Shown: positions 22,475 through 37,788 of the stretch, piece after piece
Layout of the letters: every line of letters starts with the position of its first letter
How positions within the stretch are numbered: position 1 is the stretch's first letter
Assembly (NCBI RefSeq): GCF_028416635.1
Contig: NZ_CP114013.1
Coordinates: 4,216,001 to 4,280,000 of the forward strand
Direction: 5' to 3'
Source: Baekduia alba
GTDB taxonomy: Bacteria > Actinomycetota > Thermoleophilia > Solirubrobacterales > Solirubrobacteraceae
DNA: 64,000 nt
Translations under genes and position numbers: made by a program
Notes under the pieces: model-generated
Told to the model about the DNA's origin: nothing
The model's input: the letters and a program-made list of their open reading frames with translations, nothing else
The model's database searches: none

Positions 22475-22948
22475 ATGAGCGACGAGGAGGGACGCGACGA
22501 CCGCGCCATGCTCGACGACCGCCGCGATCGCCGAACGGCTGGCGTGCGCGAAGCACTCGTGCCCGAGGGCTGGCGGAGCGACTACGTCGAGGTGATCGCG
22601 GCCCTGAAGGCCGCCGGCGGCGCCATCCCCTGGTCTCCGCACATAGGAAGTGCTGAGAACCTCGAGCAGCTCGAGATGCGGCTCGGGATCGACCAGCCGC
22701 TCGGCGCGCTGCGGTTCTTGTTGGCGTCGCAGCTCGCCGCCCGCGTCGTAGTCGACGGTCAGGAGTTGCTCGCCTTGACCGCCGAACCGTTCACGATCGT
22801 GGAGGCCCCCCTGCCACGCAAGGATGAGCAAGACGGTGCGTACGCTGAGCACCTCGCGTCGTTCGCGCGCCCGCGTCGCGCCACGCGTGACTCTGCCCCG
22901 GGGCGCGTCGTCGGCGCAGGCCAAGCCACAGCGGAAGATCGAGCGTGA
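22475..22948 (+). CDS. Element protein, unknown function
   Basis: This 157-residue soluble protein starts at ATG 22475 (GAGG nine bases before). It has a charged N-terminus (DEEGRDDRAMLDDRRDRR), a helical middle (GWRSDYVEVIAALKAAGG, ENLEQLEMRLGIDQPLG) and an Arg/Ala-rich tail. No family is recognised. Position right after the collar gene and overlap with the next start place it in the structural-type operon. Confidence 0.5.
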   Translation: MSDEEGRDDRAMLDDRRDRRTAGVREALVPEGWRSDYVEVIAALKAAGGAIPWSPHIGSAENLEQLEMRLGIDQPLGALRFLLASQLAARVVVDGQELLALTAEPFTIVEAPLPRKDEQDGAYAEHLASFARPRRATRDSAPGRVVGAGQATAEDRA

Positions 22949-23298
22949 GCGGCGTGTCCCCCACGCCCGCGGTGACCGGCGGCGTGACGCTGCTGCGCTC
23001 GCTGAACGGGCGTACGGCCCGCGTGCAGCGCTTGGACGGCACCGCAGGACGCCAGGCGGCGCGAGGCACGTTGTGGGTCTCGGAGGACAGCCATGCGCGC
23101 ACTCACACCGGCGAGACGAAGTGGACCGTCACCCTGCGCCAGCCGCGGCGCGCGCTGCTCGGAGCGCCGGCGATCTCGTTCGGTGAGTCAGAGCTGATCG
23201 GGTGCGGTGCCGTACCAACGGCTGATGGGCTGGTCGTTGGGATCCAGACGTCGACCGGCGGACACCTGCGTGTCGTCGTTGGTGAGGCGATCGCATGA
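22945..23298 (+). CDS. Element protein, predicted beta-rich, unknown
   Basis: This 117-residue protein, GTG start overlapping the previous TGA, is predicted almost entirely beta (VTGGVTLLRSLNGRTARVQR, GETKWTVTLRQPRR, VGIQTSTGGHLRVVV). That is consistent with a small tail or adaptor protein, but I see no diagnostic motif. It overlaps the next gene by four bases. Confidence 0.5.
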   Translation: MSGVSPTPAVTGGVTLLRSLNGRTARVQRLDGTAGRQAARGTLWVSEDSHARTHTGETKWTVTLRQPRRALLGAPAISFGESELIGCGAVPTADGLVVGIQTSTGGHLRVVVGEAIA

Positions 23299-24014
23299 CG
23301 CTCGGCGCGGGCGTGACGCTTGTCCTCGCGCGGCCGACCCCGACGCTGCCGGCCACTGTGCTGCAGCGCGACGCCGGCGCGTTCGCCGGGTGGCCGCTGT
23401 TCGAGCCGGAGACCGAGGCGCGGGCGGCTGCTCGACGGGGCATCCCGCGGCCGCCGAGCGACTTGCGCGGCGCCGTGCTCGAGTCCTGGTGGGACGGGGA
23501 GCGTGAGGCGGTGCTCGGCCGCGTCGCGGTGGTCGACGGCCTCGCGTCGCTGCTGGGTCGGCTGAAGACCGCGATCCGGCTGGAGCCGCATCTGTCGGCT
23601 GGTTCGCGGCGGGTCCTGAAGGGTGGGCGCAGGTTGGTGGAGTCCATCGCGCCGGATCCGGAGTCGGGCTGGCTGGCGGTCGTGACCGGGACGGGCGGCA
23701 GCGGATCGGCGCACCTCGCGCTGGTCGAGTGCTACACGGACAACAACGGAGAGAAGAGCGATATGTCGAAGATGACCTTGGCGGAAGCGTTGAGGCGTCC
23801 CGAGGTGGTCGACCATCTACGCGTCGAGCTCGGGCTGGCCGAGCCACGCACGGCGCCGGCTGCGCGGGAGCCGGAGCGCACCACTTCGGCGCGGCTGCTC
23901 GAGTCGATGATGCGGCCGGTCGAGGCGCCGCCGACGGAGAGCCCGTTCGTGGCGATGTGCAAGCGCCGCGGCCTGAACCCGGCGCACTTCGGCATGGGGG
24001 GTGGTGCTGCGTGA
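23295..24014 (+). CDS. Element protein, possibly two fused small proteins
   Basis: The frame is 239 residues from ATG 23295. The first about 155 residues are a mixed alpha/beta domain (ESWWDGEREAVLGRVAVVDG, SGWLAVVTGTGGSGSAHLAL). After a hydrophilic linker (YTDNNGEKSD) an internal ATG at 23763, preceded by GGAGAGAAG, opens an 83-residue helical tail (MSKMTLAEALRRPEVVDHL). Either this is one two-domain protein or the tail is also made separately. Function is unknown. Confidence 0.5.
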   Translation: MTLGAGVTLVLARPTPTLPATVLQRDAGAFAGWPLFEPETEARAAARRGIPRPPSDLRGAVLESWWDGEREAVLGRVAVVDGLASLLGRLKTAIRLEPHLSAGSRRVLKGGRRLVESIAPDPESGWLAVVTGTGGSGSAHLALVECYTDNNGEKSDMSKMTLAEALRRPEVVDHLRVELGLAEPRTAPAAREPERTTSARLLESMMRPVEAPPTESPFVAMCKRRGLNPAHFGMGGGAA

Positions 24015-24514
24015 GCGTGCTGAAGCCGCTCGTGGATCGGCTCTACCCGGAGCGCGAGGAGTGGGGTCCGCTCGACGAGGCGCACGGGCGGAAGCTGTCG
24101 CCGGAGGAGCACGCCTCGCTGATCGCGGGCCGCGGGCTGCCGAAGCCACGCAGGCAGAGCCTCCGGATCACCGACATGTCGGGCGTCGTCGCCGGCCGAG
24201 AGGGCGTCTCCGACGAGGCCGTCGAGCTGTTCGGTCTGGCTCAGCGGCAGGGCGGCATGCTGCGCCTGACCGAGGACATCCGGTTCGCGGGCACGCGGAC
24301 CCGGATGGACGACCTGCAGCGGCTGGTCGATGAGCTCGTGCACTTCCGACTCGTCGAGCGCGTCGAGGTCGAGCCAGCTGATCCTCGGGCTCTTCCGTCG
24401 CGTGACGGGATCCGTGTAGCAGAGTCGGTCGCGAACGTCGTGTTGTGGGCGAACGGCTGGAGCCGTTGGTCGGGTGCGAACGTCGGCGCGGTGCGGCGGC
24501 CGTCGAGCCGGTGA
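24011..24514 (+). CDS. Element protein, winged-helix-like, unknown
   Basis: This is a 167-residue protein starting at GTG 24011, overlapping the previous stop. The middle part (SDEAVELFGLAQRQGGMLRL, TRMDDLQRLVDELVHFRLVE) looks like a small winged-helix/MarR-like helical unit. The N-terminus is basic and Pro-containing. I recognise no family. It is coupled to the next gene through GTGA. Confidence 0.45.
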   Translation: MSVLKPLVDRLYPEREEWGPLDEAHGRKLSPEEHASLIAGRGLPKPRRQSLRITDMSGVVAGREGVSDEAVELFGLAQRQGGMLRLTEDIRFAGTRTRMDDLQRLVDELVHFRLVERVEVEPADPRALPSRDGIRVAESVANVVLWANGWSRWSGANVGAVRRPSSR

Positions 24515-24891
24515 CCGGAACGTCCGTCACGCCTGAGGGAGCCACGGAGGCCACCCTCCGCAGCCTCGCTGCTCTCCACGCACGACACGAGGCCGACGTC
24601 GCCAACCAGATGGTCGAGGGCCTGCGGATCGCCTGCCCCGACGAAGACGAGGACCGCATCAACGAGGCGTGCGACTGGCTGGCCGCGACCGACGTCCGGG
24701 CACAGAACTCGGCGGCGCGCCTGCGTCTACGCGAGCCGTTGTTGGAGGCCTTCTCGCAGCCGAACCCGAACCGGCGGCGACGCGACATCAACCGCCTGAT
24801 CACGGAGGAGCGAGCGCGGCTTGACGCGCGCGCTGGCGTGGTGCTGCTCGAGCCAGCGCTGCAGATCCTCGAGGCCGCGCGGAGAGCTTGA
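24511..24891 (+). CDS. Helical element protein, unknown
   Basis: This 126-residue, almost wholly helical protein is rich in Arg and acidic residues (SLAALHARHEADVANQMVEG, RRRRDINRLITEERARLDAR). It starts GTG 24511 in a GTGA overlap. It is similar in style to head-tail connector or tape-measure-chaperone proteins, but no motif supports a call. Confidence 0.45.
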   Translation: MTGTSVTPEGATEATLRSLAALHARHEADVANQMVEGLRIACPDEDEDRINEACDWLAATDVRAQNSAARLRLREPLLEAFSQPNPNRRRRDINRLITEERARLDARAGVVLLEPALQILEAARRA

Positions 24892-24894
24892 CCG

Positions 24895-25281
24895 ATGCCG
24901 GCGCATCGCAGACGCCCACCGGTGCCGGAGCAGGTCTTCGCGGGCCTGCGCCGGTGCCGCGGTGAAGGTATGAGCTTCGCGGAGGCGTGGGCGGCCGTCG
25001 TCGAGACGGCCACCACGACCGATCGCCATCCGGTGCGTCTCCCCCACGCGACCGAGGAACGGCGCGGCTGGATCGAAGCGTTGAGCGCGACGCGCGCGGA
25101 GTGGGAGGCGTGCTGGCACGGCGAGCCAACAGCGGTGAGCCGGATGCTCGACGCGTTCGCCGATCTCGACGACCGCTCGACCCGGGCGATCCCGCGTGCT
25201 GACACTCCTGTCCGGCTTCACGTCGTGCTGCCGCCGGCCTCGATCAGCCGGGCGCTCCCGGCGGAGCGCCGCGCGGCGTGA
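24895..25281 (+). CDS. Element protein, unknown
   Basis: This is a 128-residue protein, ATG 24895, three bases after the previous gene. It has a helical Trp-containing core (GMSFAEAWAAVVETATTT, RGWIEALSATRAEWEACWHG) and an Arg/Pro C-terminus. No recognisable domain is present. Placement four genes before the tape measure would fit a tail assembly factor, but this is context only. Confidence 0.45.
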   Translation: MPAHRRRPPVPEQVFAGLRRCRGEGMSFAEAWAAVVETATTTDRHPVRLPHATEERRGWIEALSATRAEWEACWHGEPTAVSRMLDAFADLDDRSTRAIPRADTPVRLHVVLPPASISRALPAERRAA

Positions 25282-25694
25282 CCGGTCGAGCGATGCCCGA
25301 TCGTCGAGCGGTCGTCCTCTCGGCGACGGCCAAGCGCCGCTACGCCGAGCGCGTCCGGCCGGACCTGTCGTTCGAGGAGGCGGCCGAGGATCTGCGCCGG
25401 CGTGCCCGTAGGGGCCGCATGTGGCGTCGCCGCCCAACGTGGCTGAAGTCGTTGGAGCGTCCGGACAACGGGGCCGGGTTCCTCCTGCTGGCCGACGAGC
25501 CGCAGGCCGTGTTGCCACTCGTGCGCAACGAGTCCGGCGACGTCGTCGCGACCACGGCGAAGCCGCGCCGGCCGCGGCCGGATCTGAACGGCCTCCGGTG
25601 CCCTGAACCTGAGGCGTCAGCGCTCGTGCGCGGCGCCGTGGCGGGGCGCCCCGCGAGTGGCGCGCTCGCAGATGATCGGAGCGGTGACACATGA
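25278..25694 (+). CDS. Element protein, basic, unknown
   Basis: This is a 138-residue, strongly basic protein. It starts GTG 25278 (overlapping the previous TGA) or ATG 25293. It contains SATAKRRYAERVRPDLSFEE and a beta-hairpin-like middle (AGFLLLADEPQAVLPLVRNE), then a disordered Arg/Pro tail. I recognise no family. The end overlaps the next start. Confidence 0.45.
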   Translation: MTGRAMPDRRAVVLSATAKRRYAERVRPDLSFEEAAEDLRRRARRGRMWRRRPTWLKSLERPDNGAGFLLLADEPQAVLPLVRNESGDVVATTAKPRRPRPDLNGLRCPEPEASALVRGAVAGRPASGALADDRSGDT

Positions 25695-25972
25695 CGACGC
25701 TGAACGACACCGAAGCGGTGGCGGCGCTGATGGGGCTGCTGTCGCGGCGGGTGAACGTCAACGTCGGCGGTCCAGGCGACGAGGCGATGGTGCTGGGCTT
25801 CACCGGCACGCTCGGCGTGCTGGCGTCCGGGGACGATCAGCTCGTGCTCGGGCTCGACGCCGCTACAGGCGTCGTCGTGGTCCCGACGAGCGCCGCGGCG
25901 GTCGTCGGCGACGGCGAGATCGTGTTCGCGTTCAGCGGAGTGCGCGTCCGGATCTCCGAGCGGGAGGACTGA
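25691..25972 (+). CDS. Small beta-rich element protein
   Basis: This 93-residue acidic protein, ATG 25691 overlapping the previous stop, is predicted to be beta-sandwich-like (MVLGFTGTLGVLASGDDQLV, VVVVPTSAAAVVGDGEIVFA). It lies three bases before the tape-measure-like gene. No motif identifies it; a tail-tube or adaptor role is only a positional guess. Confidence 0.5.
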   Translation: MTTLNDTEAVAALMGLLSRRVNVNVGGPGDEAMVLGFTGTLGVLASGDDQLVLGLDAATGVVVVPTSAAAVVGDGEIVFAFSGVRVRISERED

Positions 25973-25975
25973 GCG

Positions 25976-28900
25976 ATGCCCGCGACGATCGAGTCGAGCT
26001 TCGTCCTCCTCGACAGAGCATCGGGGCCCATCAAGCGCATCCGGCGCGAGCTCGTCGGGATGGAACGTGACGCGCGGAACGCGGGCACTGCGATGGACAA
26101 CATCGCCGGCCCGAAGGCCGCCCGCGACCTCGAGGCTCTGGCACGCGAGACGCGCGGCGTCGACGGCGCCATCAAGGACCTGCGCCGTGACCTCGGCGTG
26201 GCCGGCAAGACGCTGTCGGTGTACGAGGGCCGCGTGAGCGGCGCCCGTCGCGAGACCGACCGGATGCGCGCGTCGACCGATCGGCTCGTGAAGAGCATGC
26301 GGACGCTTGGCACGATCGACGCTCGACCGCACGTCGAAGTTGATGGACTTGCTAGGGCCCGTGCAGATCTGGCCGCGTTCCGGCGCGAGCTCAACGCGAT
26401 GAACCGGCTCGACGTCGGCCCGGGCCCCGGGTTCGGCGGCCGCGGCGGCTTCGGCAGTCGCGCCGGCGTCGGCCTGTCGGGAGGCAGCGGCGGCGCGTCG
26501 GCCTACGCGTCGGCGTCCGTGTTCGGTGGTGGCGCGGCGCGCGCGCTGGGCTTGGCGGCGGTCGCGGCGCTGCCGGCGGTGCAGTCCCTCGGCGGCGCGA
26601 CGACGGCGCTGGGCGCCTCGCTGGCCGGCGCGGGCCTCGGCGCCGGCGCTGGCGCTCTCGCCGGCGGCGGAGCGCTCGCCGCCGGGGTCGGCGCACTCGC
26701 CGCGGTGGCGGCACCGGTGAAGAAGAACCTCGAGGCCGCGACGAAGGCCCAGCAGCAGTACACGACTGCGGTGCAGGACTTCGGCCGGAAGTCCAAGCAG
26801 GCGATCCGCGCGAAGCGGGACCTTGACCGCGTCATGGCCGGCGCGGCGCCGGGCACCGCGGGCTTCCTTACGCAGCGCTCGGGGTTCGGTCGCGACTGGA
26901 ATCGGGCGTCGCGCGGTGCGCAGACCGATCTTCTCGGGCTCGGCACCGGGGCGATGCGCCGCGTCCGTCAGCGCGCGCTGCCGGGCCTTGGCGCGGACGC
27001 GGGGCTTGTGGCGTCGGCGGCGCGCACGCAGGGGCTCGCGCTGACCGACACGCTGACCGGGCCGGCGAGCCTCGGGATCATCAACTTGCTGTCGAAGTCG
27101 TTCGCGGGCAACCTCGACGAGGCCGGGCACACGGTCGAGAACATCGCGTTGACCTTGGGGCGGCTGGCGGTCGACGCTCAGCCGTTCTTCTCCGAGGGCA
27201 TGGGCTGGGCAGAGGCGACGACCCGCGGGTGGCGCGAGAGCTCCAAGGACATCGGTCATGTCCGGCACGAGATGGCCGGCTACGTCGACGATCTCCGCGC
27301 GTGGGGCCACCTGACGGAGTCGGCGTTCGAGCTCGTGCGCGACATTGCCGCGCCCGGCCGACGGCCGGGTACGAGCATGGTCGGCGACCTCACCGAGCAG
27401 CTCGACCACTGGGACGACTGGGCGCAGCGCAACCCCGTGAGGATCGAGAGGTTCTTCGACGACTCGGTGAAGTCGACCGAGGACCTCGCCGGCGCGCTGG
27501 GCGAGGTCGCGAAGGACCTGCACGAGGTCGCCGACGTGTTGACGCCGGTGCTGTCGCGCTTCGCGGCGCTGGCCCAGATCGGCGGCGGGCTGGGCTTGCT
27601 GGCGCCGACGGCGATCCGCGTCGGGCTGGGCCGGCTCGCGGGCGGCGGAGGAGCGGGCGGCGCGGGTGCCGCGGCGTCCCGTGCGGCCGGAGGTGCTGCG
27701 GGTAGCGAGCTCGTCGCGGGCGCCGGCGCCGGCTACCTCGCGGCGCGCGGCGCGGGCGCGCTGTCGTGGAACCGAGCGGTCGCCACGCCCGAAGTCTTCG
27801 CAGCGCGGTACGGCAGCGTGCCCGGAGCGCGCTACGGGATGCCCGCGTCGTCGCTGGGCGCGCGGTCATCCGCGCTGTCACGGCTGCGAGGCCCCGCGGC
27901 GTCGGCGGGCCGGTTCGTCGCTCCGATCGTGGCTATCCAGGCGGCGTTGGGCGCGGCGCAGGATCCGGGCGGCGCGGGTCTTCTAGGCCGGTGGCGGGAC
28001 ATCACGTCGTCGATGTCGCTCGGCCTAGTCCCGAGCCAGGGCAAGCTCAACGACCGGTCCAACCGGCAGAACTTGGGCGCCCTGCAGGGCTACGTCGACG
28101 GCCTGCCGGACAACGAGAACACCTACGGCGGCGCCCGCCGCCAGATCGCGTCGCTGCGCGGCCTGCGCGGTCGCGTGCAGGCCGGTGGCGGCTCGGCTGA
28201 CGTCCGCAACACGGTGACGCGTGCGATCGACGCCGAGATCGAGGCGCGGAAGGAGCTGCTGCCGTCGCTGCGCGCAGAGCGCGACGCACGCAGCCGCGAT
28301 CGGGGCGCTTCGCAGGGCCAGAGCGTGGCCACGGCGTTCCGGTCTGACCTGCGTCACCTGGGGCCGGATAAGGCGTTCGGTCAGCTGCGGTCGAGCCTCC
28401 TGGGCGCCGGTGGGGTCGCCGACCGCAACTTCCCGGGCGGCCGGCAGCTTGCGCAGTCCGGGCTCGAGGCGGCGAGGGCCGCCGCCCAGGGCAACCCGGC
28501 GCTGCAGAAGGAGTACGACAAGCTCGCCAAGGGCGTCAGCGACCGCTTCGCCGACATGGGTCACAACGTCGTGCTCGCCAACGGGCACATCCTGTCGGCG
28601 ACGCAGAAGGACTGGCCGCGGATCCGCGACGCGCTCGCCAAGCCCGCCGAGCAGGCGCGGCAGCGCGTAAGCGACGCGTTCAGCGCGATCCAGCTGCAGG
28701 CGATCGGCGCGCTGACCGACATGGGGTACTCGCCGTCGCAGGCTCGAAGCCTCGTGCGCGGCGCTGCGGGCAACGGCACCGCCAGCATCAGCCACGCCGT
28801 CTCGAACGCGAAGGCGACGAAGGCCTACAACACGTCGGCGGCATCGCCGGCGGCGCAGGCGTTCGGCCCCTCGCCCGGCAACCCGGCGAAGATCGGCGAT

Positions 28901-30019
28901 GGTGTCGGCAGCGACCGGCCGACGCTGGCGAACACGACGGGCGGCGCCGGCCTGATGGGTGCCAACCCGAACCTCGGCGTCTACGCCGCGCTGGGCGCGA
29001 AGTACGGCGACCACGTGACCTCGGGGGCGCGCCCGGGCTCGAAGACGCTGAGCGGCAACGTCTCGTTCCACGACTCCGGTCACGCGATCGACATGGCTGG
29101 TGGCGATCTCCGCGGGCTGGCACGCGACCTGTACACCAACCACGGCTCCGGACTCGAGGAGCTCATCAGTCCGTTCCCGGAGTACAACCTCAAGAACGGC
29201 AAGCCGTTCAAGTACCCGTCGGCGATCGAGGCGCAGCACAGCGGCTCGAACGCTCATGTCCACGTCGCCGATGTCGACCCGGGCGGCGCCGGCGGGTTGT
29301 CGGCGTCGCTGAGCCTGGACACGACCGGGCCTGGGCTGATGACCGTCGCGCTGAAGGGGACGAAGTCCGGGATCGGCGGCGTGGCCGGCGCGCTGGCCGA
29401 CGCCGCCTCGGGCGCCTACGCCGCGGGGCTGACGCAGAAGCTCAACGGCTCGCTCGGCGGCGGCGGCGGTGGCGCGGCGCTCGGCGGCGATCTGCCGTCG
29501 ATGATCGCCGCCGCTGGCCTGCCGGCGATCTTCAACGCGATCGTGGGCGCGGAGTCCGGCGGCAACCCGCGCGCGCACAACGCGTCGGGGGCCGACGGCC
29601 TGACGCAGCTGCTCGGGCATCAGGATCTCGTCGAGCGTGCCGCGCTGATGCTCGGCCGCCCGGCCGACGTCTACGACCCGCTGGTCAACCTCGCCGCCGC
29701 GAAGCTCCTCTACGACCAGAACGGGCTCGCGCCGTGGACCGCCTCGCGGCCGGTGTGGGGCAAGGCGATGGGCGATGGCACGGGCATCGCGCGGCCACGG
29801 TTCACCGGCTCGTCGATCCCGGCTGGTCGCTTGCCGTCGGTGCGGCGCAAGGGCCACAACGCCGGCCCGCTGGTCGCGCCGGGCGCGGTCGTCATCCACG
29901 CCCACGGCGCCAACGCGGAGGAGATCGCCACGATGGTCGGTGCACACCTCAACGCCTTCGCCGATCTCGTTATGGACGAGATCCAGTTGGGCCACGAGGA
30001 AACCGAGGCGACGGCCTAG
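25976..30019 (+). CDS. Tape-measure-like protein with M15 peptidase and lytic transglycosylase domains
   Basis: The 1347-residue protein is the longest in the element. Residues 1-150 are charged coiled coil (RIRRELVGMERDARNAG). About 180-250 are Ala/Gly-rich hydrophobic helices, and the middle is Ala-rich helical, the typical tape-measure composition. Residues about 1005-1105 form an M15-type metallopeptidase domain: SFHDSGHAIDM with H1032 and D1039, then AHVHV with H1094/H1096 (SxHxxGxAxD and HxH). Residues about 1175-1290 are an SLT domain with catalytic E1193 in GAESGGNPRAHNASGADGL. Both domains would open cell-wall peptidoglycan during DNA or effector entry. Its TAG stop is nested in CTAG with the stop of the convergent gene. 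Confidence 0.85.
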   Translation: MPATIESSFVLLDRASGPIKRIRRELVGMERDARNAGTAMDNIAGPKAARDLEALARETRGVDGAIKDLRRDLGVAGKTLSVYEGRVSGARRETDRMRASTDRLVKSMRTLGTIDARPHVEVDGLARARADLAAFRRELNAMNRLDVGPGPGFGGRGGFGSRAGVGLSGGSGGASAYASASVFGGGAARALGLAAVAALPAVQSLGGATTALGASLAGAGLGAGAGALAGGGALAAGVGALAAVAAPVKKNLEAATKAQQQYTTAVQDFGRKSKQAIRAKRDLDRVMAGAAPGTAGFLTQRSGFGRDWNRASRGAQTDLLGLGTGAMRRVRQRALPGLGADAGLVASAARTQGLALTDTLTGPASLGIINLLSKSFAGNLDEAGHTVENIALTLGRLAVDAQPFFSEGMGWAEATTRGWRESSKDIGHVRHEMAGYVDDLRAWGHLTESAFELVRDIAAPGRRPGTSMVGDLTEQLDHWDDWAQRNPVRIERFFDDSVKSTEDLAGALGEVAKDLHEVADVLTPVLSRFAALAQIGGGLGLLAPTAIRVGLGRLAGGGGAGGAGAAASRAAGGAAGSELVAGAGAGYLAARGAGALSWNRAVATPEVFAARYGSVPGARYGMPASSLGARSSALSRLRGPAASAGRFVAPIVAIQAALGAAQDPGGAGLLGRWRDITSSMSLGLVPSQGKLNDRSNRQNLGALQGYVDGLPDNENTYGGARRQIASLRGLRGRVQAGGGSADVRNTVTRAIDAEIEARKELLPSLRAERDARSRDRGASQGQSVATAFRSDLRHLGPDKAFGQLRSSLLGAGGVADRNFPGGRQLAQSGLEAARAAAQGNPALQKEYDKLAKGVSDRFADMGHNVVLANGHILSATQKDWPRIRDALAKPAEQARQRVSDAFSAIQLQAIGALTDMGYSPSQARSLVRGAAGNGTASISHAVSNAKATKAYNTSAASPAAQAFGPSPGNPAKIGDGVGSDRPTLANTTGGAGLMGANPNLGVYAALGAKYGDHVTSGARPGSKTLSGNVSFHDSGHAIDMAGGDLRGLARDLYTNHGSGLEELISPFPEYNLKNGKPFKYPSAIEAQHSGSNAHVHVADVDPGGAGGLSASLSLDTTGPGLMTVALKGTKSGIGGVAGALADAASGAYAAGLTQKLNGSLGGGGGGAALGGDLPSMIAAAGLPAIFNAIVGAESGGNPRAHNASGADGLTQLLGHQDLVERAALMLGRPADVYDPLVNLAAAKLLYDQNGLAPWTASRPVWGKAMGDGTGIARPRFTGSSIPAGRLPSVRRKGHNAGPLVAPGAVVIHAHGANAEEIATMVGAHLNAFADLVMDEIQLGHEETEATA

Positions 30020-30183
30020 CGATTCGGAGCCCAGCCGAACGCGACGTCGGCGGTGTGCCCGTCCGGGATGGGCAGCTCGTCGTCGCGCAAGTACAGGCCG
30101 TTGCGTGCCGCAAGACACGTCGTGGCGGGATGGACGGCGGCGGTGGTACCCGAGAGCGGGCCGGCAAGGAAGACGACAGTCAT
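30016..30183 (-). CDS. Small leftward protein, unknown
   Basis: This is a 55-residue protein starting ATG 30183 (MTVVFLAGPLSGTTAAVHPA) with a hydrophobic N-terminus and an acidic end (LRDDELPIPDGHTADVAFGW). The frame is also open further upstream to 30264. It converges on the tape-measure gene, and their stops interlock in CTAG. It lies 40 bases downstream of another leftward gene. No family is recognised. Confidence 0.4.
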   Translation of the reverse strand: MTVVFLAGPLSGTTAAVHPATTCLAARNGLYLRDDELPIPDGHTADVAFGWAPNR

Positions 30184-30223
30184 AACCGAGAGGTTCACGC
30201 TGCCGTCGATCGAGCCGAGCGAC

Positions 30224-30691
30224 CTACTCCCACCACCGGTGACCGAGCTTCGGCTCACGGCCAACGTCAGCGGCGACTTCGTCGAGAAGTCGTTGTCCGC
30301 GCCGGAGATCGTCGACGGGCATGCCGGTCTCTCTGGCCAGCCGCTCGTCGGTCCACGGCGCAGGCGGAAACGCGTTGGCCATGTGCCGGATGACCAAGAT
30401 CCCGAGCACGCCGAGATCGATCGTGTCGCCGCCGTCGCCGAGATTGGCGCGCTGATGCCGGTCCTCAGGCTGCTTGAACCCGCCAGCGGTCAAAGCCTCG
30501 TGGAGCCACACGCGGCCGTTGGTCGGCGCTGAGCCCTCCTTCGGCGCCGGCGCCGGGATGCGCTCGGCCAGACTTTCGCTCATCGCAGCGACGAGCTCGT
30601 CGTCGGTCATGGTGTCGACGGGGTGCGTGTCGCGAAGGATGGCGCGGACTACTTCGAGGTCTTCCGGCGTCGGGTCGTCGAGGTTGTGCAT
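30224..30691 (-). CDS. Acidic leftward protein, unknown
   Basis: This 155-residue protein starts at ATG 30691 (MHNLDDPTPEDLEVVRAILR). It is helical and acidic, with a Pro-rich linker and a C-terminal part (WTDERLARETGMPVDDLRRG) resembling a small DNA-binding helical bundle. It is divergent from recombinase 1, with operator-like module A between them. It is therefore a natural candidate for the repressor or antagonist of that module, but no HTH is certain. Confidence 0.5.
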   Translation of the reverse strand: MHNLDDPTPEDLEVVRAILRDTHPVDTMTDDELVAAMSESLAERIPAPAPKEGSAPTNGRVWLHEALTAGGFKQPEDRHQRANLGDGGDTIDLGVLGILVIRHMANAFPPAPWTDERLARETGMPVDDLRRGQRLLDEVAADVGREPKLGHRWWE

Positions 30692-30706
30692 CTCTCAATT
30701 TCTAGT

Positions 30707-30803
30707 GTTACCACCGGTCGCACAAGCCTGTGGCTTCTCGGGAGCCCTTGCGCCACAAGGCCTTCCGTCGACCAGTGACAGCGCGCTGACCGCGTGGTAC
30801 CGT
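30707..30803 (+). promoter_or_regulatory. Operator-promoter module A (recombinase 1)
   Basis: The elements in order are GTTACC (30707), 17 bases later the dyad AAGCCTGTGGCTT (30724-30736), a second dyad CCTTGCGCCACAAGG (30746-30760) and an extended -10-like TGGTACCGT (30795-30803). The first two are spaced exactly as in modules B (32057) and D (34451). It lies between the leftward acidic protein and recombinase 1. Confidence 0.6.
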
Positions 30804-30816
30804 CGCCGCGACAACC

Positions 30817-30852
30817 AAAAAGCGCCCCCGCGACGCGCCAACGTCCGGGGGC
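30817..30852 (-). terminator. Hairpin with A-tract in the recombinase 1 leader
   Basis: GCCCCCG (30824-30830) plus GACG pair with CGTC plus CGGGGGC (30842-30852) around a 6-base loop with one bulge. AAAAA at 30817-30821 becomes a T-tract after the stem on the minus strand. It is thus a textbook intrinsic terminator for leftward transcription, and a stable 5' leader hairpin in the rightward mRNA. Confidence 0.6.
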
Positions 30853-30876
30853 ATGGCCCAAGGAGTGTCTACCTCC

Positions 30877-32043
30877 ATGAGCACGACGAAGCCTACGCGC
30901 GCCCGAAGCGCGACCGGCATCTACGTGAAGCATCGCGACGCCTGCGCGTCGCACCACGGCGGCGCCTGCACCTGCCGCCCGGCCTATCAGGCCGCTGTCT
31001 GGTCCGCGCGCGAGCGCCGCCGGATCCGCAGGCACTTCGACTCGTTCGGCGACGCCAAGGCCTGGCGCGCTGAGCAGCTCGTCGGGCTGAGGAAGGGGAC
31101 CGTGAAGGCCCCGACTCGCACGACGCTGGCCGAGGCGGCGGCCGAGTGGCTGGCCGGCGCCGACGCGGGGACGATCCTCGCCCGCAACCGCCAGCCGTAC
31201 AAGCCGAGCGCGCTGCGCGGGTACCGGCGTGCGCTCGAGCAGCGCGTCGTGCCCGAGTTGGGGCACTACAAGTTGTCGGCGATCGACCACGTGATGTTGC
31301 AGGACTTCGCCGACCGGCTCGCGCGGACGCTCGACGCGTCGACTGTGCGGAACACCCTGAGCCCGGTCCAGGCGATCATGCGCCGCGCGGTGAAGCGCGG
31401 CGTGATCGCGATCAACCCGGCGGTCGGGCTCGAGCTCCAGGCGCCGCAGGGCCGCCGCGACCGCGTCGCCTCCCCCGCCGAGGCTGCCGCGCTCCTGTCC
31501 GCGCTGGCCGAGGGCGACCGCGCGCTGTGGGCGACGGCGCTGTACGCCGGGCTGCGACGCGGTGAGCTCCGTGCGCTGCGTTGGGACGACGTCGACCTCG
31601 AGGCGAACGTCATCCGTGTCGCGCGGTCGTGGGACGACGTCGCCGGCCCGATCGAGCCGAAGTCGCGCGCCGGCGTGCGCACCGTGCCGATCGCGTCGGC
31701 GCTGCGCGCGCTGCTTGTCGAGCATCGGCTGCGCCGCGGCGGCCACGGTGAGGATCTCGTCTTCGGCCACGTCGACGAGCGCTCGTTCGAGCCAAGCAGC
31801 GTGCGCCGGCGTGCGCTGACCGCATGGAAGCGCGCCAAGCTCCTGTCGATCGGCCTGCACGAGTGCCGCCACACGTTCGCGTCGCTGATGATCGCCGCGG
31901 GCGTCAACGCCAAGGCGTTGTCGACCTACATGGGGCACTCGAGCGTGACGATCACGTTCGACCGCTATGGCCACCTCATGCCGGGCAACGAGGAGCAGGC
32001 CGCCGGGCTGCTCGACGACTACCTAGCCGCCGCCAGCGGCTGA
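30877..32043 (+). CDS. Tyrosine recombinase 1
   Basis: This 388-residue recombinase starts at ATG 30877; AAGGAG lies 11 bases upstream, and ATG 30853 is an in-frame alternative. An N-terminal segment with Cys/His (HRDACASHHGGACTCRPAYQ) precedes the SAM-like core-binding domain (SALRGYRRALEQRVVPELGH). The catalytic domain carries R in AGLRRGELRALRW, HECRHTFAS (H-x-x-R), GHSSV and the nucleophile Y364 in FDRYGHLMPG. It should cut and rejoin DNA. It is not next to either att site and is similar to recombinase 2, so its substrate may be internal or a second target. It is expressed from module A. Confidence 0.88.
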   Translation: MSTTKPTRARSATGIYVKHRDACASHHGGACTCRPAYQAAVWSARERRRIRRHFDSFGDAKAWRAEQLVGLRKGTVKAPTRTTLAEAAAEWLAGADAGTILARNRQPYKPSALRGYRRALEQRVVPELGHYKLSAIDHVMLQDFADRLARTLDASTVRNTLSPVQAIMRRAVKRGVIAINPAVGLELQAPQGRRDRVASPAEAAALLSALAEGDRALWATALYAGLRRGELRALRWDDVDLEANVIRVARSWDDVAGPIEPKSRAGVRTVPIASALRALLVEHRLRRGGHGEDLVFGHVDERSFEPSSVRRRALTAWKRAKLLSIGLHECRHTFASLMIAAGVNAKALSTYMGHSSVTITFDRYGHLMPGNEEQAAGLLDDYLAAASG

Positions 32044-32056
32044 CGGTTCGCGCTGC

Positions 32057-32141
32057 GTTACCGCCGGTAGCGTAAGCCTATGACTTGACCGGATCCCTTG
32101 TGGGATAAGGGCTAGCGCGCGACCGCTCGGGATGCTACGGT
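32057..32141 (+). promoter_or_regulatory. Operator-promoter module B (recombinase 2 operon)
   Basis: GTTACC (32057), the dyad AAGCCTATGACTT (32074-32086) at the same 17-base offset as in module A, a second dyad CCCTT...AAGGG (32095-32111), and an extended -10-like TGCTACGGT (32133-32141). It starts 14 bases after the recombinase 1 stop. Confidence 0.6.
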
Positions 32142-32157
32142 CGCGTTGTTCCTCAAC

Positions 32158-32198
32158 AAAAAGCGGCCCCGACGGTGCTGGTAACACCGGCCGGGGCC
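32158..32198 (-). terminator. Hairpin with A-tract in the recombinase 2 operon leader
   Basis: GGCCCCG and CGGTG (32165-32177) pair with CACCG and CGGGGCC (32185-32198). AAAAA at 32158-32162 gives a T-tract after the stem on the minus strand. The layout is the same as the hairpin before recombinase 1, again between promoter and ribosome site. Confidence 0.6.
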
Positions 32199-32221
32199 TG
32201 CCAACCAGGAAGGTGATTTCC

Positions 32222-32527
32222 ATGGCCAGCATGTGGAAGCGTACGCGCGAAGACGTCGCGCAGCAGTACGGCCCGCCCCCCATCGGGTTCGACCCGGGCA
32301 CGGCGGACCTCCCCCAGCGCCACCGAGACTTGACCGTCGAAGGTCTCGAGGCGGCGGCACGCATCGTCGCGGCGATCGCGCTGCAGGCCACGCCCGAGGA
32401 CGTCGCGCGCGGCGACTTCGAGACCGAGGTTCGAGACCTGTGGATGGACCGCCTGCAGCGCGATGAGGCGATGGCGCACGTGGACCTCCTCGTCGCGGCG
32501 CTCGCGCCGCTCGGAGCTGCGGCATGA
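32222..32527 (+). CDS. Small protein preceding recombinase 2
   Basis: This is a 101-residue protein with ATG 32222 behind AGGAAGG. It is mainly helical (SMWKRTREDVAQQYGPPPIG at the N-terminus; EGLEAAARIVAAIALQATPE; DLWMDRLQRDEAMAHVDLLV). There is no known family. The stop overlaps the recombinase 2 start (ATGAGC), so the two are translated together; it may be an accessory or directionality factor. Confidence 0.6.
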   Translation: MASMWKRTREDVAQQYGPPPIGFDPGTADLPQRHRDLTVEGLEAAARIVAAIALQATPEDVARGDFETEVRDLWMDRLQRDEAMAHVDLLVAALAPLGAAA

Positions 32528-33717
32528 GCGGGCGCCGCGGCGGCCTTCCGACCGGGGTGCAGCGCAAGCACTCGCGCGCGTGCCCGGCGTTCAACGACAA
32601 GGACGCGCGCTGCCGGAGCAAGGGCTGTACCTACCAGGTCCAGGCGGGGCCGCGCGGCGACCGCCGGACGAAGACGTTCCCGACCGTCAGCGCCGCGGTC
32701 GCGTGGAAGCGCGACATGGAGTCGGCACGCGCCCGGGGCAAGGTCGCGCCCGGCCGCGCGCCTACTCTTCGCGAGGCGGCGAACGAATGGGTGGCGGACG
32801 CGCGCGCCGGCGTCGCCATGGGCCGTGGCCGGACGCCGCTGAAGCCGAGCACGCTGCACAGCTACGTGCGCTCGCTCAGGAACGACTGGATCCCGCGGTA
32901 CGGCGATGTGCGCCTCGACGACCTCGGCGACCGTCTCAACGAGGCCGTGGCGAACCTCCAGCGCCGCGGTCTGAAGCCGTCGACGGTCCGCAACGCGGTG
33001 ATGCCCGTCCGGGCGATCTACCGCTACGCCGTGCGGATGGGGTGGGTGGCGCACAACCCGACTGAGCGCCTCGAGCTGCCGGCGGGCTCAGGCCGCCGCG
33101 AGCGGACGGTGGCGATCGCCGACATCCCGCGGTATCTGGAGGCGCTGTCCGCGGGCGACCGCGGCCTGTGGGCGACTGCCTTCTACGCGGGCCTTCGTTG
33201 CGGCGAACTGCAGGCGCTCCGGCGGAGCCACGTCCACCTCGACGCGGGCTTCATCGAGGTGGTCGCATCGTACGACGCGCGCACCGGTACTTGGAGCGCT
33301 CCGAAGTCAGCCGCCGGGCACCGCCGCGTGCCGTTGGGTGCGGTGGCACGATGGCTGGTGATCGACGAGGACCTGCCGCCCGACGCGCTCGTGTTCGCAC
33401 GGGGACGGCTCGCCGGGACGGCGAGAGGTCCCGGGGATGAGCCGTTCAACGACAGCTCGGTGTGGCAGCGGGCGAACATCGCGTGGCGCCGTGCTGAGCT
33501 GACGCAGGTGTCCTTGCACGACGCGCGCCACACCTGCGCCTCGGTGGCCATCGCGGCGATGGCCGCGCGCGGCGTGTTCAACCCCAAGATGCTGCAGGCG
33601 ATGATGGGCCACGCGTCGATGCAGATGACCTACGACCGGTATGGCCACCTCTTCCCGGGGCAGGAGGCCGAGCTCGGCGACATGCTGCGGGACCTCGTGA
33701 CCGGAGCGGAAGGATGA
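32524..33717 (+). CDS. Tyrosine recombinase 2
   Basis: This 397-residue recombinase starts at ATG 32524 inside the preceding stop. Its N-terminus has a Cys cluster (HSRACPAFNDKDARCRSKGC) in the same place as recombinase 1, followed by a core-binding domain (STLHSYVRSLRNDWIPRYGD). The catalytic motifs are AGLRCGELQALRR (Arg), HDARHTCAS (His-x-x-Arg), GHASM and YDRYGHLFPG (Tyr). It is clearly paralogous to recombinase 1. It lies in a three-gene operon with a small upstream protein and a downstream coiled-coil/HTH protein. Confidence 0.88.
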   Translation: MSGRRGGLPTGVQRKHSRACPAFNDKDARCRSKGCTYQVQAGPRGDRRTKTFPTVSAAVAWKRDMESARARGKVAPGRAPTLREAANEWVADARAGVAMGRGRTPLKPSTLHSYVRSLRNDWIPRYGDVRLDDLGDRLNEAVANLQRRGLKPSTVRNAVMPVRAIYRYAVRMGWVAHNPTERLELPAGSGRRERTVAIADIPRYLEALSAGDRGLWATAFYAGLRCGELQALRRSHVHLDAGFIEVVASYDARTGTWSAPKSAAGHRRVPLGAVARWLVIDEDLPPDALVFARGRLAGTARGPGDEPFNDSSVWQRANIAWRRAELTQVSLHDARHTCASVAIAAMAARGVFNPKMLQAMMGHASMQMTYDRYGHLFPGQEAELGDMLRDLVTGAEG

Positions 33718-34163
33718 TGTCGCCGTACGACGCGCGCGTCGATCAGCTGACCGCCGAGATCGCCGACCTCGAGCGCCACTTGGCCTACGTCGATCAGCGG
33801 GCGGTCGCGCTGCGGCTCGACCGCGACCACACCGCCGCCCGCCTGCAGGACGCGAAGACGGCCCGCGACCGCGCCTGCAAGGTCCGGGACGCAGCTGGCC
33901 GAGTCAGGGAGGGCGTATCGGCCGACGAGCCGCCCCCACGGCGGAGACCGACGCCGATCGCGATCAACGCTAGCGACGCGGCGGCCATGCTGGGTGTCGG
34001 CCCAGACTTCTTCCGCGAGCACATCGTGGCCGAGGTCCCGTGTATCCGCCGCGGGCGACTCCGGCTGTTCCGCGTCGCGGACCTGGAGCAGTGGGCGGCG
34101 AGCGCCGCGGAGGCGCCGGCCGGGCGCGGACGCGACTTCGGCGTCGGCGAGTTCTCCTCCTAG
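33714..34163 (+). CDS. Coiled-coil protein with excisionase-like HTH
   Basis: This 149-residue protein starts at ATG 33714, overlapping the recombinase 2 stop. The N-terminal 65 residues are a coiled coil (RVDQLTAEIADLERHLAYVD). After a Pro/Arg linker comes a MerR/excisionase-type helix-turn-helix: INASDAAAMLGVGPDFFREH, then IRRGRLRLFRVADLEQW. It could be the directionality factor for recombinase 2 or a regulator of the shared operators. Confidence 0.65.
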   Translation: MMSPYDARVDQLTAEIADLERHLAYVDQRAVALRLDRDHTAARLQDAKTARDRACKVRDAAGRVREGVSADEPPPRRRPTPIAINASDAAAMLGVGPDFFREHIVAEVPCIRRGRLRLFRVADLEQWAASAAEAPAGRGRDFGVGEFSS

Positions 34164-34169
34164 CGGCGC

Positions 34170-34197
34170 GAGGCCCGTCCGCCGCGCGGCGGGCCTC
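34170..34197 (+). terminator. Hairpin after the recombinase 2 operon
   Basis: GAGGCCCG (34170-34177) pairs with CGGGCCTC (34190-34197), starting seven bases after the stop codon. There is no T-tract, as is common in high-GC actinobacterial terminators. Confidence 0.55.
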
Positions 34198-34450
34198 CCG
34201 TGTCACCGCGCGTTGTCATCGGCGAGCGCGTCGGTCCCGGCCATGTCCGCGTGGCGCGGCGCGCACCGCCAACTGCCACGCGGCTCAGACACCGAGAGCA
34301 TCGTGCAACCCAACGGTTCAGGAGCGACTTGCGCTGAGTTCCGACCGCGCGTTCTCGTAGCCTCAGCGATGTCGCCTTCTGCTTGCGACATCTTCAAGAG
34401 GGCCGCCCCGCAATGGGCGGCCCTCGTCCGTTCCAAGCCTCCATCGCTAA
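34198..34450. other. Non-coding stretch with a strong dyad
   Basis: I see no gene. At 34398-34425 there is a perfect 11-bp stem (GAGGGCCGCCC / GGGCGGCCCTC, 6-base loop CGCAAT), a probable terminator insulating module D, which starts 26 bases later, from upstream transcription. Confidence 0.5.
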
Positions 34451-34534
34451 GTTACCTTTGGTCACATAGGCCATCAACTTGGTTCCGTCCGCTCGGCTGT
34501 GCAACCTACGTGCTGCGTCGTTCCTAAACGACGC
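34451..34534 (+). promoter_or_regulatory. Operator-like module D (initiator operon)
   Basis: GTTACC at 34451 and AGGCCATCAACTT at 34468-34480 keep the exact 17-base offset of modules A and B. A leader hairpin GCGTCGTT/AACGACGC (34515-34534) follows, as at A and B but without the A-tract. The second dyad is not clear and the -10 is uncertain (TGCAACCT around 34500). Confidence 0.5.
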
Positions 34535-34565
34535 CGGACCCGAAGATGCCGAGCAGGAGCAACAC

Positions 34566-34943
34566 ATGCAGGAGTCTGGTCGCCGCCTAGCGCGTCGAGC
34601 CTCGCAGCGTCAGCGCGGCGAAGCGTTCGCGGCTTTGTGCGCCGGCGCCGCGCGCCGCACCCTCGCCGCCCGCGGCGAAGACCCCAACCGAGGACTGCGC
34701 TTTGAGGATCTCGCGTTGGTCAGCGCACGCCAGCGGCGACGCATCACCGCCAGCTTGACGCACCGACCAGCTCGCGCTGCCGCACCGACCCGGCGCGGCA
34801 GCAGCCGACAGCCGCACGCGCGCCGCACCGCCCGTGTGACTAGCCCGCCGGGATCGGGCGACGGCCCACCAGGTGATCCAGACCCGGCGGACGGCCTACG
34901 CCTCCGACGCCGCCGGGAAGAGCCCATCGGAGGCGCCGCATGA
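34566..34943 (+). CDS. Basic small protein, first gene of the initiator operon
   Basis: This is a 125-residue protein starting ATG 34566, with AGGAG at 34553. The N-terminal about 65 residues form helices (ARRASQRQRGEAFAALCAG, RFEDLALVSARQRRRITASL), and the remainder is Arg/Pro/Gly-rich and probably disordered. No family is recognised. It overlaps the initiator-like gene start by four bases. Confidence 0.5.
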   Translation: MQESGRRLARRASQRQRGEAFAALCAGAARRTLAARGEDPNRGLRFEDLALVSARQRRRITASLTHRPARAAAPTRRGSSRQPHARRTARVTSPPGSGDGPPGDPDPADGLRLRRRREEPIGGAA

Positions 34944-35821
34944 GCGGCCTTGTGACGTTCCGCCACGACCTGGGGGACGACGTGACGCGCGTGAAGCACG
35001 CGCGGTGCGGCGCGGTCTTCACGATCGCCGAGGTCGACGACGACATTTCTCCGGCCCAAGACGGCAGCGGCAAGCTGCTCTGCGAGCGCTGCGAGAGCGA
35101 GCGCGCTGGCGCCGGCTACGGCTTCATGCCCGTTCGCCGGCGCTCGGCGCTCGAGCGCGCTGGCGGTAAGCCGTACGGACCGCTCCCGTGGTGGTTCGCG
35201 CGCGGTGAAGGCCTACACCTGTCGCCCACGGAGTTCCGGCTGGTGGTGGCGTTGTGGGGCTTCCAGGGCGAGCATGAGGAGGCCCGGCCGACGCTGGCCA
35301 CGCTGGCGGCGCTCTGCGAGCGCGGCGAACGTCACGTCGGACGCGTGCTGGACAGCCTCGTCGAGCGTGGTCTCATCCTTCGATGGCGGCGGTCGCGTCG
35401 CCAGGCCTACCGCTACGACGTCGGGCCGCTCGTCCGGGGCGAAGTCGTCGCTGGCCGTCAGCCGAGTGCGGATACCGATGTACGGACTCGCGACGCGCCG
35501 AGTGCGGACACCGACGTACGGTCTGACGAGATCGGCCACGACGCAAGCGAGGTCGAAAACGTCGCGCCGGGCACGCGAGTCCGGACATCTACGTCCAGTC
35601 AGACCGGACATCAGCGTCCACACTCAGTACGGACGTCCACGTCCGGTGAAGAAGAACTAGCGGAAGAAGAACTACAAGAAGAAGATCCGACTTCGTCGGG
35701 TCGCGCGGGGCGCGACTTCGATGATGAGGACGCAGCCGCGTTCCAGAGCCTTCCGGCGAAGTGGCGGGCTATAGGTGAGCGCTGGGCTGCAGACGGCGAC
35801 GGCGAGTCGGTGGTCGCATGA
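34940..35821 (+). CDS. Replication-initiator-like winged-helix protein with internal iterons
   Basis: This is a 293-residue protein, ATG 34940 overlapping the previous stop. An N-terminal segment with CGAVF and CERCESE could bind metal. Residues about 80-155 are a winged helix (LSPTEFRLVVALWGFQGEHE, RPTLATLAALCERGERHVGR, SLVERGLILRWRRSR) of the type found in phage/plasmid initiators such as lambda O and HTH_36 proteins. Residues 175-236 are encoded by five iteron-like repeats, giving repeated SADTDVR and VRTSTS motifs. An acidic EEELAEEELQEED stretch follows. An N-terminal DNA-binding domain, ori inside the gene and a C-terminal partner-recruiting tail is the lambda O plan. I infer that this protein starts replication of the excised element; no helicase gene is visible. 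Confidence 0.6.
   Translation: MSGLVTFRHDLGDDVTRVKHARCGAVFTIAEVDDDISPAQDGSGKLLCERCESERAGAGYGFMPVRRRSALERAGGKPYGPLPWWFARGEGLHLSPTEFRLVVALWGFQGEHEEARPTLATLAALCERGERHVGRVLDSLVERGLILRWRRSRRQAYRYDVGPLVRGEVVAGRQPSADTDVRTRDAPSADTDVRSDEIGHDASEVENVAPGTRVRTSTSSQTGHQRPHSVRTSTSGEEELAEEELQEEDPTSSGRAGRDFDDEDAAAFQSLPAKWRAIGERWAADGDGESVVA
35466..35647. repeat. Five iteron-like repeats, candidate origin
   Basis: Five 21-23-bp units start at 35466, 35502, 35579, 35602 and 35627. All carry the core GGA(C/T)-N6-GT(C/A)C, an interrupted dyad best seen as GGACATCTACGTCC (unit 3) and GGACACCGACGTAC (unit 2). Units 3-5 are spaced 23 and 25 bases apart; units 1-2 are 36 bases apart. They lie inside the initiator-like gene. 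Confidence 0.65.
35648..35686. other. Purine-rich direct repeat next to the iterons, candidate unwinding region
   Basis: GAAGAAGAACTA occurs at 35648-35659 and 35663-35674, followed by AAGAAGAAGATC. The strand is almost all purine and is the lowest-GC stretch of the neighbourhood. Its place directly after the iterons matches the easily melted tract of lambda-type origins. Confidence 0.5.
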
Positions 35822-36234
35822 TCGGCGGCTTCGACGGAAACGCGCATGAACCCGGTCGCCTGCATCCCGATGACCTTGAGGACTTGGCCGACCTCGTCGC
35901 GGAACGTCTTGCGGCCCGCCTCGCCAGCACCGTTGCCCCGTCCCTGCTGGCGGGCGAACTGGTTGACGCGGCCGCGGTCGCGTCGCGCCTGGGCGTCGCC
36001 CCAGCGTGGGTTCGCGAGCATGCCGACGAGCTGGGCGCGATACGGATGGGAGCTGGTCCACGGCCGCGGTTGAGATTCGACATCGACGCGGCTGCGAGCG
36101 CGTATGCAACGCGGTCCAGTGCGCCGAGCCCAGGCCCTGCTGAAGAGCCGCAGCGACCGGCGCGGCGCAGGCGCGCGTCGGGGAGGCGCCCGACTGCCTC
36201 ATCACGACTCGCCGTTCCGGCGTGGGAGGAGTAG
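35818..36234 (+). CDS. Excisionase-like HTH protein
   Basis: This 138-residue protein starts at ATG 35818, overlapping the initiator stop. Residues 48-95 form a MerR/excisionase-type HTH (LVDAAAVASRLGVAPAWVRE, GAIRMGAGPRPRLRFDIDA), similar in plan to the HTH of the recombinase 2 operon. The C-terminal about 35 residues are Arg/Pro-rich. Position just before the tRNA-proximal integrase makes it the best candidate for that integrase's directionality factor. Confidence 0.6.
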   Translation: MIGGFDGNAHEPGRLHPDDLEDLADLVAERLAARLASTVAPSLLAGELVDAAAVASRLGVAPAWVREHADELGAIRMGAGPRPRLRFDIDAAASAYATRSSAPSPGPAEEPQRPARRRRASGRRPTASSRLAVPAWEE

Positions 36235-36385
36235 CGTGCGCGGCGACATGGAAGTGGCCGGGCGGCGCGCTAACGCCCCCGGCCGTGGCGCAGCGGGAAT
36301 GAGCCGCGGCGCGCGTGCATCGTTGCAGGTGACGGTCCACCTCCGGCTCAGCGCCCGCGGCACCTCCCACCCGAGAGGAGCGGTG

Positions 36386-36430
36386 ATGGCAAGGCATAGG
36401 TGTTGCTCAGCACGGCCCGAGGCGGCGTGA
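36386..36430 (+). CDS. 14-residue leader peptide coupled to the integrase
   Basis: ATG 36386 follows AGAGGAG by five bases, one of the best ribosome sites in the element. The frame reads MARHRCCSARPEAA and stops at 36428-36430, sharing its last base with the integrase ATG (TGATG). The integrase itself has no good ribosome site, so its translation probably depends on this leader. The tandem Cys and rare-looking context could make it a sensing peptide. Confidence 0.55.
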   Translation: MARHRCCSARPEAA

Positions 36431-37698
36431 TGCCGCGGCCGGCGACAGGCAGCGTGGTGACGAAGGCCACTGCAGCCGATGACGTGTCGTTCGCGCTGCG
36501 GTTCCGGGCGCTCGGGCGGCGGCAGTTCGTGCACCTCGGCTACGCGTCGGAGGGCTGGACGGAGAGCAAGGCGCGGGACGAGCTGACGTTGACGATGGCG
36601 GCGGTGCGTCGCGGGGCGTGGCAGCCGGTTGAGTCGGTGGTCATGGGGCCGCCGGCGGAGATCCCTCGAATCGAGGACTTCGCGAACGTGTGGCTTGACG
36701 CTGAGCGTGATCGTGGTCTCGGAGCGCGCACGATCGAGGACCTCGAGTGGCGGCTGGGGCACCTGCTGTCGTGGTTCGTGCACAAGGCCGGTGACCCCCG
36801 CGTGAGCGAGATCAGCGTGCAGATGGTCGACGAGTACCGCGCGGCGAAGAAGCGTCAGGGGAAGCTCTCCGCCGGGTCGATCAACCGGACGATCGACACG
36901 CTCTCTGCGGTCCTGGACTTGGCGGTCGAGTACGAGCACATCGAGAAGAACGTCGCACGCGGCAAGCGCCGCAAGCTCGCGACGAAGAAGAAGCGGCCCG
37001 TGTACCTGGACGGCGTCGATCAGATCGCGGCGGTGCTCGACGCCGCGCGTGAGCTCGACGACGCGAGGGAGTCGCGGACCGCGGATCGGTACCCGCTGGT
37101 CGCGACGCTGCTGTTCGCCGGGCCACGGGTCGAGGAGGCCGGCGAGGCGCTCGTTCGGGACCTTGACCTAGCGCGCGGGTTCCTCGAGGTCGGGCGGTCC
37201 AAGACGGCAGCCGGGATGCGGAAGATCGACCTGCTGCCGGTCCTGCGCGATGTGCTGGCGGCCTACAAAGCCGGCCACCGCGGCGGAGTAGACGACCTCC
37301 TGTTCTCGACGCGGGAGGGCACCGCACGCGACCGCCACAACATCGCTCGGCGCGTGCTGGCGCCCGTGGTGGCGCGTGCCCACAAGTTGCTCGAGGAGCG
37401 AGGCCAGCAGCCGATGCCGCAGGGTGTGACGCCCCACAAGCTGCGCCACACCTACACGTCGATCCTGTTCGCGATTGGCCGCGATGCGCCCTACGTTATG
37501 GGCCAACTCGGCCACACCGATCCCGCGTTCACGCTCCGGGTGTACGCCCACGTCATGCGCTTCTCAGCGGATGAACGTGCTCGGCTGAAGGCCCTCGTGG
37601 ACGGTGTCGAGTGGGCACCAATGGGCACTCAGGGCGTCGGGACAGCCGCGTCGCCCGTCTCCCCTGACCCCGGCGGACTCCCCGAAACTACGTCCTAG
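36430..37698 (+). CDS. Tyrosine integrase of the tRNA-Pro element
   Basis: This 422-residue integrase starts at ATG 36430. An N-terminal beta-rich arm-binding region (SFALRFRALGRRQFVHLGY) leads to a core-binding domain (ARTIEDLEWRLGHLLSWFVH) and the catalytic domain, with R in LLFAGPRVEEAGEAL, HKLRHTYTS, GHTDPAF and Tyr in LRVYAHVM. It reads toward tRNA-Pro and ends 17 bases before the att repeat, so it is the enzyme that integrated the element there. It differs from recombinases 1 and 2 and lacks their Cys-rich N-terminus. Confidence 0.92.
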   Translation: MPRPATGSVVTKATAADDVSFALRFRALGRRQFVHLGYASEGWTESKARDELTLTMAAVRRGAWQPVESVVMGPPAEIPRIEDFANVWLDAERDRGLGARTIEDLEWRLGHLLSWFVHKAGDPRVSEISVQMVDEYRAAKKRQGKLSAGSINRTIDTLSAVLDLAVEYEHIEKNVARGKRRKLATKKKRPVYLDGVDQIAAVLDAARELDDARESRTADRYPLVATLLFAGPRVEEAGEALVRDLDLARGFLEVGRSKTAAGMRKIDLLPVLRDVLAAYKAGHRGGVDDLLFSTREGTARDRHNIARRVLAPVVARAHKLLEERGQQPMPQGVTPHKLRHTYTSILFAIGRDAPYVMGQLGHTDPAFTLRVYAHVMRFSADERARLKALVDGVEWAPMGTQGVGTAASPVSPDPGGLPETTS

Positions 37699-37714
37699 CA
37701 GGGGTTTCGGGGAG

Positions 37715-37758
37715 TCGGGACGGCCGGATTCGAACCGGCGACCCCCTGCTCCCAAAGC
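37715..37758. repeat. Right attachment site (44-bp direct repeat)
   Basis: This is identical to 19274-19317 and forms the 3' 44 bases of the intact tRNA-Pro, starting at its discriminator base. The identity stops at the anticodon loop/stem, and the sequences diverge immediately outside on both sides. Confidence 0.93.
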
Positions 37759-37788
37759 AGGTGCGCTACCAGGCTGCGCCACGTCCCG
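37715..37788 (-). tRNA. tRNA-Pro (anticodon TGG)
   Basis: This is a complete 74-base cloverleaf on the minus strand: acceptor CGGGACG / CGTCCCG with discriminator A, D-arm GCGCAGCCTGGTAGCGC, anticodon loop with TGG (37754-37752) and T-arm CCGGTTCGAATCCGG. It reads CCA-type proline codons. The element integrates into its 3' half and restores it, leaving the fragment at 19274. Confidence 0.95.

Follow-up and report, generated by a model that had tools for sequence, protein, structure and literature searches.

The gene at 34940–35821 of the window (the whole 64-kb stretch of DNA analysed here, bases 4216001–4280000 of the single-contig, 5.86-Mb genome of Baekduia alba) is very probably, at roughly 85%, a lambda O-type initiator gene of an integrated mobile element, with the replication origin located inside the gene itself. 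Its parts, their order and spacing, a constraint acting at the DNA level and a homology to O-like proteins are all directly observed, and the same layout is found in relatives and in lambda O; the gene is a distant new example of the known lambda design, not a new kind of system. In lambda, the middle of the O gene contains four iterons together with an AT-rich tract needed for unwinding, and the dyad iterons of lambda and Stx-phage O genes are about 20–25 bp apart, with extra iterons adding residues to the protein (PMC7466680). The features of the gene and its surroundings are as follows.

19274–19317, no strand: distal att repeat, 44 bp, perfect direct repeat
34566–34943, plus strand: small ORF 5′ of the initiator, overlapping the initiator start (ATGA), from the ORF list
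34940–35821, plus strand: O-like replication initiator gene, 293 aa (Pfam HTH_36, PHROG 391 / 270)
34997–35092, plus strand: possible zinc-binding N-terminal segment, H20-x2-C23 ... C48-x2-C51, conserved in L002
35216–35377, plus strand: winged-helix DNA-binding domain, aa 93–146 (HTH_36, AlphaFold2 model, PDB fold matches)
35469–35483, plus strand: iteron 1, CGGATACCGATGTAC, right half degenerate
35505–35519, plus strand: iteron 2, CGGACACCGACGTAC, right half degenerate
35582–35596, plus strand: iteron 3, CGGACATCTACGTCC
35605–35619, plus strand: iteron 4, CGGACATCAGCGTCC
35630–35644, plus strand: iteron 5, CGGACGTCCACGTCC
35648–35687, plus strand: purine-rich, easily melted tract, candidate DNA unwinding element (tandem repeat, stability scan)
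35818–36234, plus strand: excisionase-like HTH gene, overlapping the initiator stop (ATGA), from homology and a weak PHROG match
36430–37698, plus strand: tyrosine integrase (Phage_integrase, E 4e-12)
37714–37788, minus strand: tRNA-Pro(TGG), integration site (ARAGORN)
37715–37758, no strand: att repeat at the tRNA end, 44 bp, perfect direct repeat

The initiator gene lies in an 18.4-kb chromosomal element whose edges are a perfect 44-bp direct repeat at the tRNA-Pro(TGG) gene, the repeat overlapping the 3′ end of the tRNA. Near this tRNA end the gene order is small ORF, initiator, excisionase-like gene and tyrosine integrase (rep-xis-int). The small ORF has no match in Pfam or PHROG, while the excisionase-like ORF matches PHROG 66 (excisionase) weakly (E 0.017). 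The ATGA overlaps linking the small ORF, the initiator and the xis-like gene suggest translational coupling between the three. Elsewhere in the element are a tail collar gene (21460–22443), a tape-measure-like gene encoding an SLT domain (25976–30019) and, counting the one next to the tRNA, three tyrosine integrases (at 30853, 32524 and 36430); a second HTH_17/excisionase-like ORF (33714–34163) overlaps the end of the integrase at 32524–33717, making a separate int-xis pair. The element may be a mosaic, or a set of nested elements.

In its rep-xis-int order, its tyrosine integrase and its site in a tRNA 3′ end, the element resembles the AICEs, in which, as in pSAM2, rep, xis and int lie at one end and integration occurs in a tRNA 3′ end (PMC3218068). 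AICE initiators, however, are RepSA, RepAM or Prim-pol, whereas in the window initiator only HTH_36 is above the Pfam cut-off, and the FtsK-like transfer gene that AICEs carry was not found among the larger ORFs scanned in the window element.

The composition of the element also bears on a variant of our reading, compatible with it, in which the lambda O-type module is a decayed origin, carried by a defective prophage remnant that has lost the ability to replicate. Tail genes and several integrases are present in the 18.4-kb element (19274–37758), neither a capsid nor a terminase gene was recognised there, and two of the iterons are degenerate; against this, rep, xis and int all have intact ORFs and the two att copies agree at every one of their 44 bp, and we regard such decay as rather unlikely, though a possibility of some weight.

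The winged-helix ORF described in the initial annotation is present as described (293 aa), with a match to Pfam HTH_36 at aa 93–146 that exceeds the curated cut-off (E 7.7e-7). The protein also matches PHROG 391, “replication initiation O-like” (E 5.3e-8), and PHROG 270, “replication initiation protein” (E 2e-7), so the earlier statement that it has no sequence relationship to known O proteins was wrong; judged by these profile matches, the initiator is related to known O-like initiators, though divergent from them. It shares with that family sequence similarity, a winged helix placed before a linker, intragenic iterons and an adjoining, easily melted tract. Modelled with eleven O-like sequences in AlphaFold2, the domain is predicted with confidence (mean pLDDT 84) as an ordinary winged helix, with MarR-type winged-helix matches in the PDB; the full-length model is poor (mean pLDDT 46), and fold matches obtained from it were set aside. 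The linker encoded by the repeats has low model confidence and is probably disordered. Preceding the winged helix is an N-terminal extension of about 90 aa, in which His20, Cys23, Cys48 and Cys51 are conserved in the sole close homologue, and this conservation suggests that the segment could bind zinc. The initiator has no DnaA_N domain, nor any known helicase-binding domain at its C-terminus.

Within the gene, five repeats with the consensus CGGAYRYCNNYGTMC occur in 176 bp, at uneven spacings of 36, 77, 23 and 25. The initial annotation had given all five the core GGAC-N6-GTCC; the number stands, but the core is exact in only three (35583, 35606 and 35631), the degenerate repeats 1 and 2 reading GGATACCGATGTAC and GGACACCGACGTAC. 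Neither the count of exact GGAC-N6-GTCC cores in the window (3 against 3.5 expected) nor similarity scores that are blind to base composition, by which the five repeats are not extreme in such G+C-rich DNA, is significant, and both were dropped as evidence. The composition-weighted score of the five-copy family is higher than in 500/500 protein-preserving shuffles and 500/500 dinucleotide shuffles, and at the level of the whole gene the family exceeds 100/100 shuffles. Perfect matches to CGGAYRYCNNYGTMC number 34 in the 5.86-Mb genome, five of them in this 176 bp; since the pattern was derived from these five sites, the count demonstrates that the cluster is unique but cannot serve as an independent p-value. 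Outside the cluster, distinct sites are always at least 8 kb apart.

The iterons stand in codon phases 1, 1, 0, 2 and 0, so that a single motif is read twice as SADTDVR, twice as VRTSTS and, in the third codon phase, as TGHQRP. Because all three phases are used, it is the DNA that is conserved and not the peptide, which is direct evidence that selection acts on the DNA of the iterons. The initial view that DNA function constrains the protein is thereby upheld, all the more as the closest homologue has the same layout with another repeat sequence.

The purine-rich direct repeat that had been placed right after the iterons is also there. A 15-bp repeat, GAAGAAGAACTANNN, is present in 2.5 copies, with the GAAGAAGAACTA repeat at 35648–35685, and 35648–35687 ranks second among the least stable 40-bp sites of the 64 kb (z = 4.1); the least stable of the whole window is at 54239–54295. 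Taken together, the lambda O-style plan put forward initially is borne out, with an O-like initiator, dyad iterons in the DNA of its linker and a least stable 40-mer of the gene that starts 6 nt past the last iteron (5 nt in lambda O). The likeness to lambda and Stx-phage O extends to the N-terminal DNA-binding domain, the mid-gene iterons and the melted tract that follows them. In contrast to lambda O, the window iterons are unrelated in sequence and irregularly spaced, the melted tract is purine-rich and only moderately rich in A+T, and the initiator has the N-terminal extension with its conserved Cys/His residues; and, unlike the lambda O-P pair, the initiator is linked to xis-int, with no P gene adjoining and a xis-like gene next.

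We compared eleven O-like genes by the same test, with lambda O and its annotated iterons as the positive control; five HTH_36 loci with unconvincing ORFs (L054, L059, L060, L065 and L067) were excluded, and weak class-level matches (E 1e-3 to 1e-2) were not counted as homologues. The control behaves as expected, with its least stable 40-mer 5 nt past the last repeat. The closest homologue found is the initiator L002 of the same-genus genome G005, 37% identical over the matched stretch. Three CGGTCANAGNGACCG dyad repeats, at a pitch of 23 bp and in three codon phases, occupy the same place after its winged helix, followed by a weak tract with a 15-bp repeat, a xis-like gene (44% identity to the window ORF at 35818–36234) and an integrase (39% identity to that at 36430–37698). 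At gene level these repeats are marginal against protein-preserving shuffles (1/100 reaches them). The L002 element thus has in common with ours an O-like protein, a xis-like gene, an integrase, a tRNA-associated att site and intragenic dyad repeats followed by a weak tract, and differs in its iteron, in having three clear copies and in being integrated at tRNA-Met: it ends in a tRNA-Met gene, with the distal att copy about 9.8 kb off. This G005 element (L069:10947-10997, L070:2737-2788; about 9.8 kb, with a rep-xis-int end) also encodes a tail collar protein (55% identical across 77 aa), and it and the window element may belong to one family of small elements, phage-derived or satellite-like. 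No close relative beyond L002 was found in viral contigs, genome contigs, phages, plasmids or 397 genomes of the phylum; conservation therefore rests on one close homologue.

More widely, the intragenic-repeat layout is shared, wholly or partly, by about eight O-like genes of the host's class. Unrelated dyad repeats occur in the linker DNA of L022, L026, L027, L052, L058 and L064, and in lambda O, the window gene, L002, L022, L026 and L058 the least stable 40-mer lies 4–6 nt past the last repeat. By inspection, that of L064 abuts the last true repeat, while in L027 and L052 the repeats are present and the least stable 40-mer does not follow them. Three of the eleven (L028, L053 and L055) have no significant repeats in this test; the case named at the outset as counting against the proposal, a winged helix lacking repeats, was found only among these more distant relatives. 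The intragenic-origin layout among O-like genes is common, not universal.

The O-like gene of Arthrobacter phage KellEzio (gp40, annotated “replication initiation O-like”) likewise combines an O-like winged helix with significant intragenic repeats adjoining its least stable tract, though it lies in a phage genome and no direct similarity between its product and the window protein could be detected. In gp17 of Arthrobacter phage Whytu (L081:2122-2236), CCGGACA-N4-GTCC dyads, having the GGAC half-site in common with the window iterons, adjoin the least stable tract of the O-like gene; this repeat family taken alone is not significant (38/100 shuffles). In two of the class-level genes (L026:1375-2565 and L028:1501-2919), the O-like winged-helix initiator carries at its C-terminus a fused DnaA_N domain (PF11638; E 2.9e-7 and 1.5e-8, respectively), which may stand in for a separate helicase loader, and L022:1498-2559 has a weak DnaA_N match (0.065).

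These comparisons also weigh on whether the protein could instead be a transcription regulator, with a winged helix of MarR/GntR type and operators inside its own gene, the weak tract being incidental. The best PDB matches of the winged-helix model are indeed MarR-type, and most fold matches are regulators. Family searches, however, favour replication initiation, a promoter role is not apparent for sites 500 bp into the gene, the distance from the last repeat to the weak tract is 4–6 nt in six genes tested, lambda O included, and the gene order is rep-xis-int; a regulator is accordingly improbable. Still further from the evidence are repeats of the linker at the protein level (SADTDVR, VRTSTS) with no role for the DNA, which we reject as a sole explanation because the window gene, like L002, L022, L026 and L064, has its copies spread over every codon phase and protein-preserving shuffles never reach the observed score, even though the linker is repetitive as a peptide and has the low model confidence of disordered segments.

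For the lambda O-type initiator, the analogy with lambda suggests the following course of events. Once the element has excised, the winged helix of the initiator, probably dimeric, would bind the five dyad iterons in the stretch that encodes the protein's flexible linker; the complex so formed would melt the adjoining purine-rich tract at 35648–35687, and the host replicative helicase would then be recruited and loaded at the melted tract. On this view the element would still be able to replicate. Translation-coupled rep and xis beside int would tie excision to replication. No P/DnaC-like helicase loader was recognised among the element genes scanned, which leaves the initial description of the origin as “self-contained” unproven. 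A broader and more speculative proposal, which we put forward tentatively, is that small tRNA-integrated elements with tail genes (18.4 kb here, about 9.8 kb for L002) replicate from lambda-type intragenic origins without a loader of their own, that the initiator-iteron specificity is switched between close relatives at a fixed layout, and that such elements are possibly phage satellites.

The lambda layout, with initiator, its own iterons and a melted tract combined in a single gene, turns up again among prophages and integrated elements in a G+C-rich bacterial class, for which, going by the literature searched, it had apparently not been described before. The repeat sequence varies while position and spacing do not. 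The layout is therefore a simple signature for finding the origins of uncharacterised elements, and related initiator-iteron sets are natural pairs for testing how initiators change their DNA specificity.
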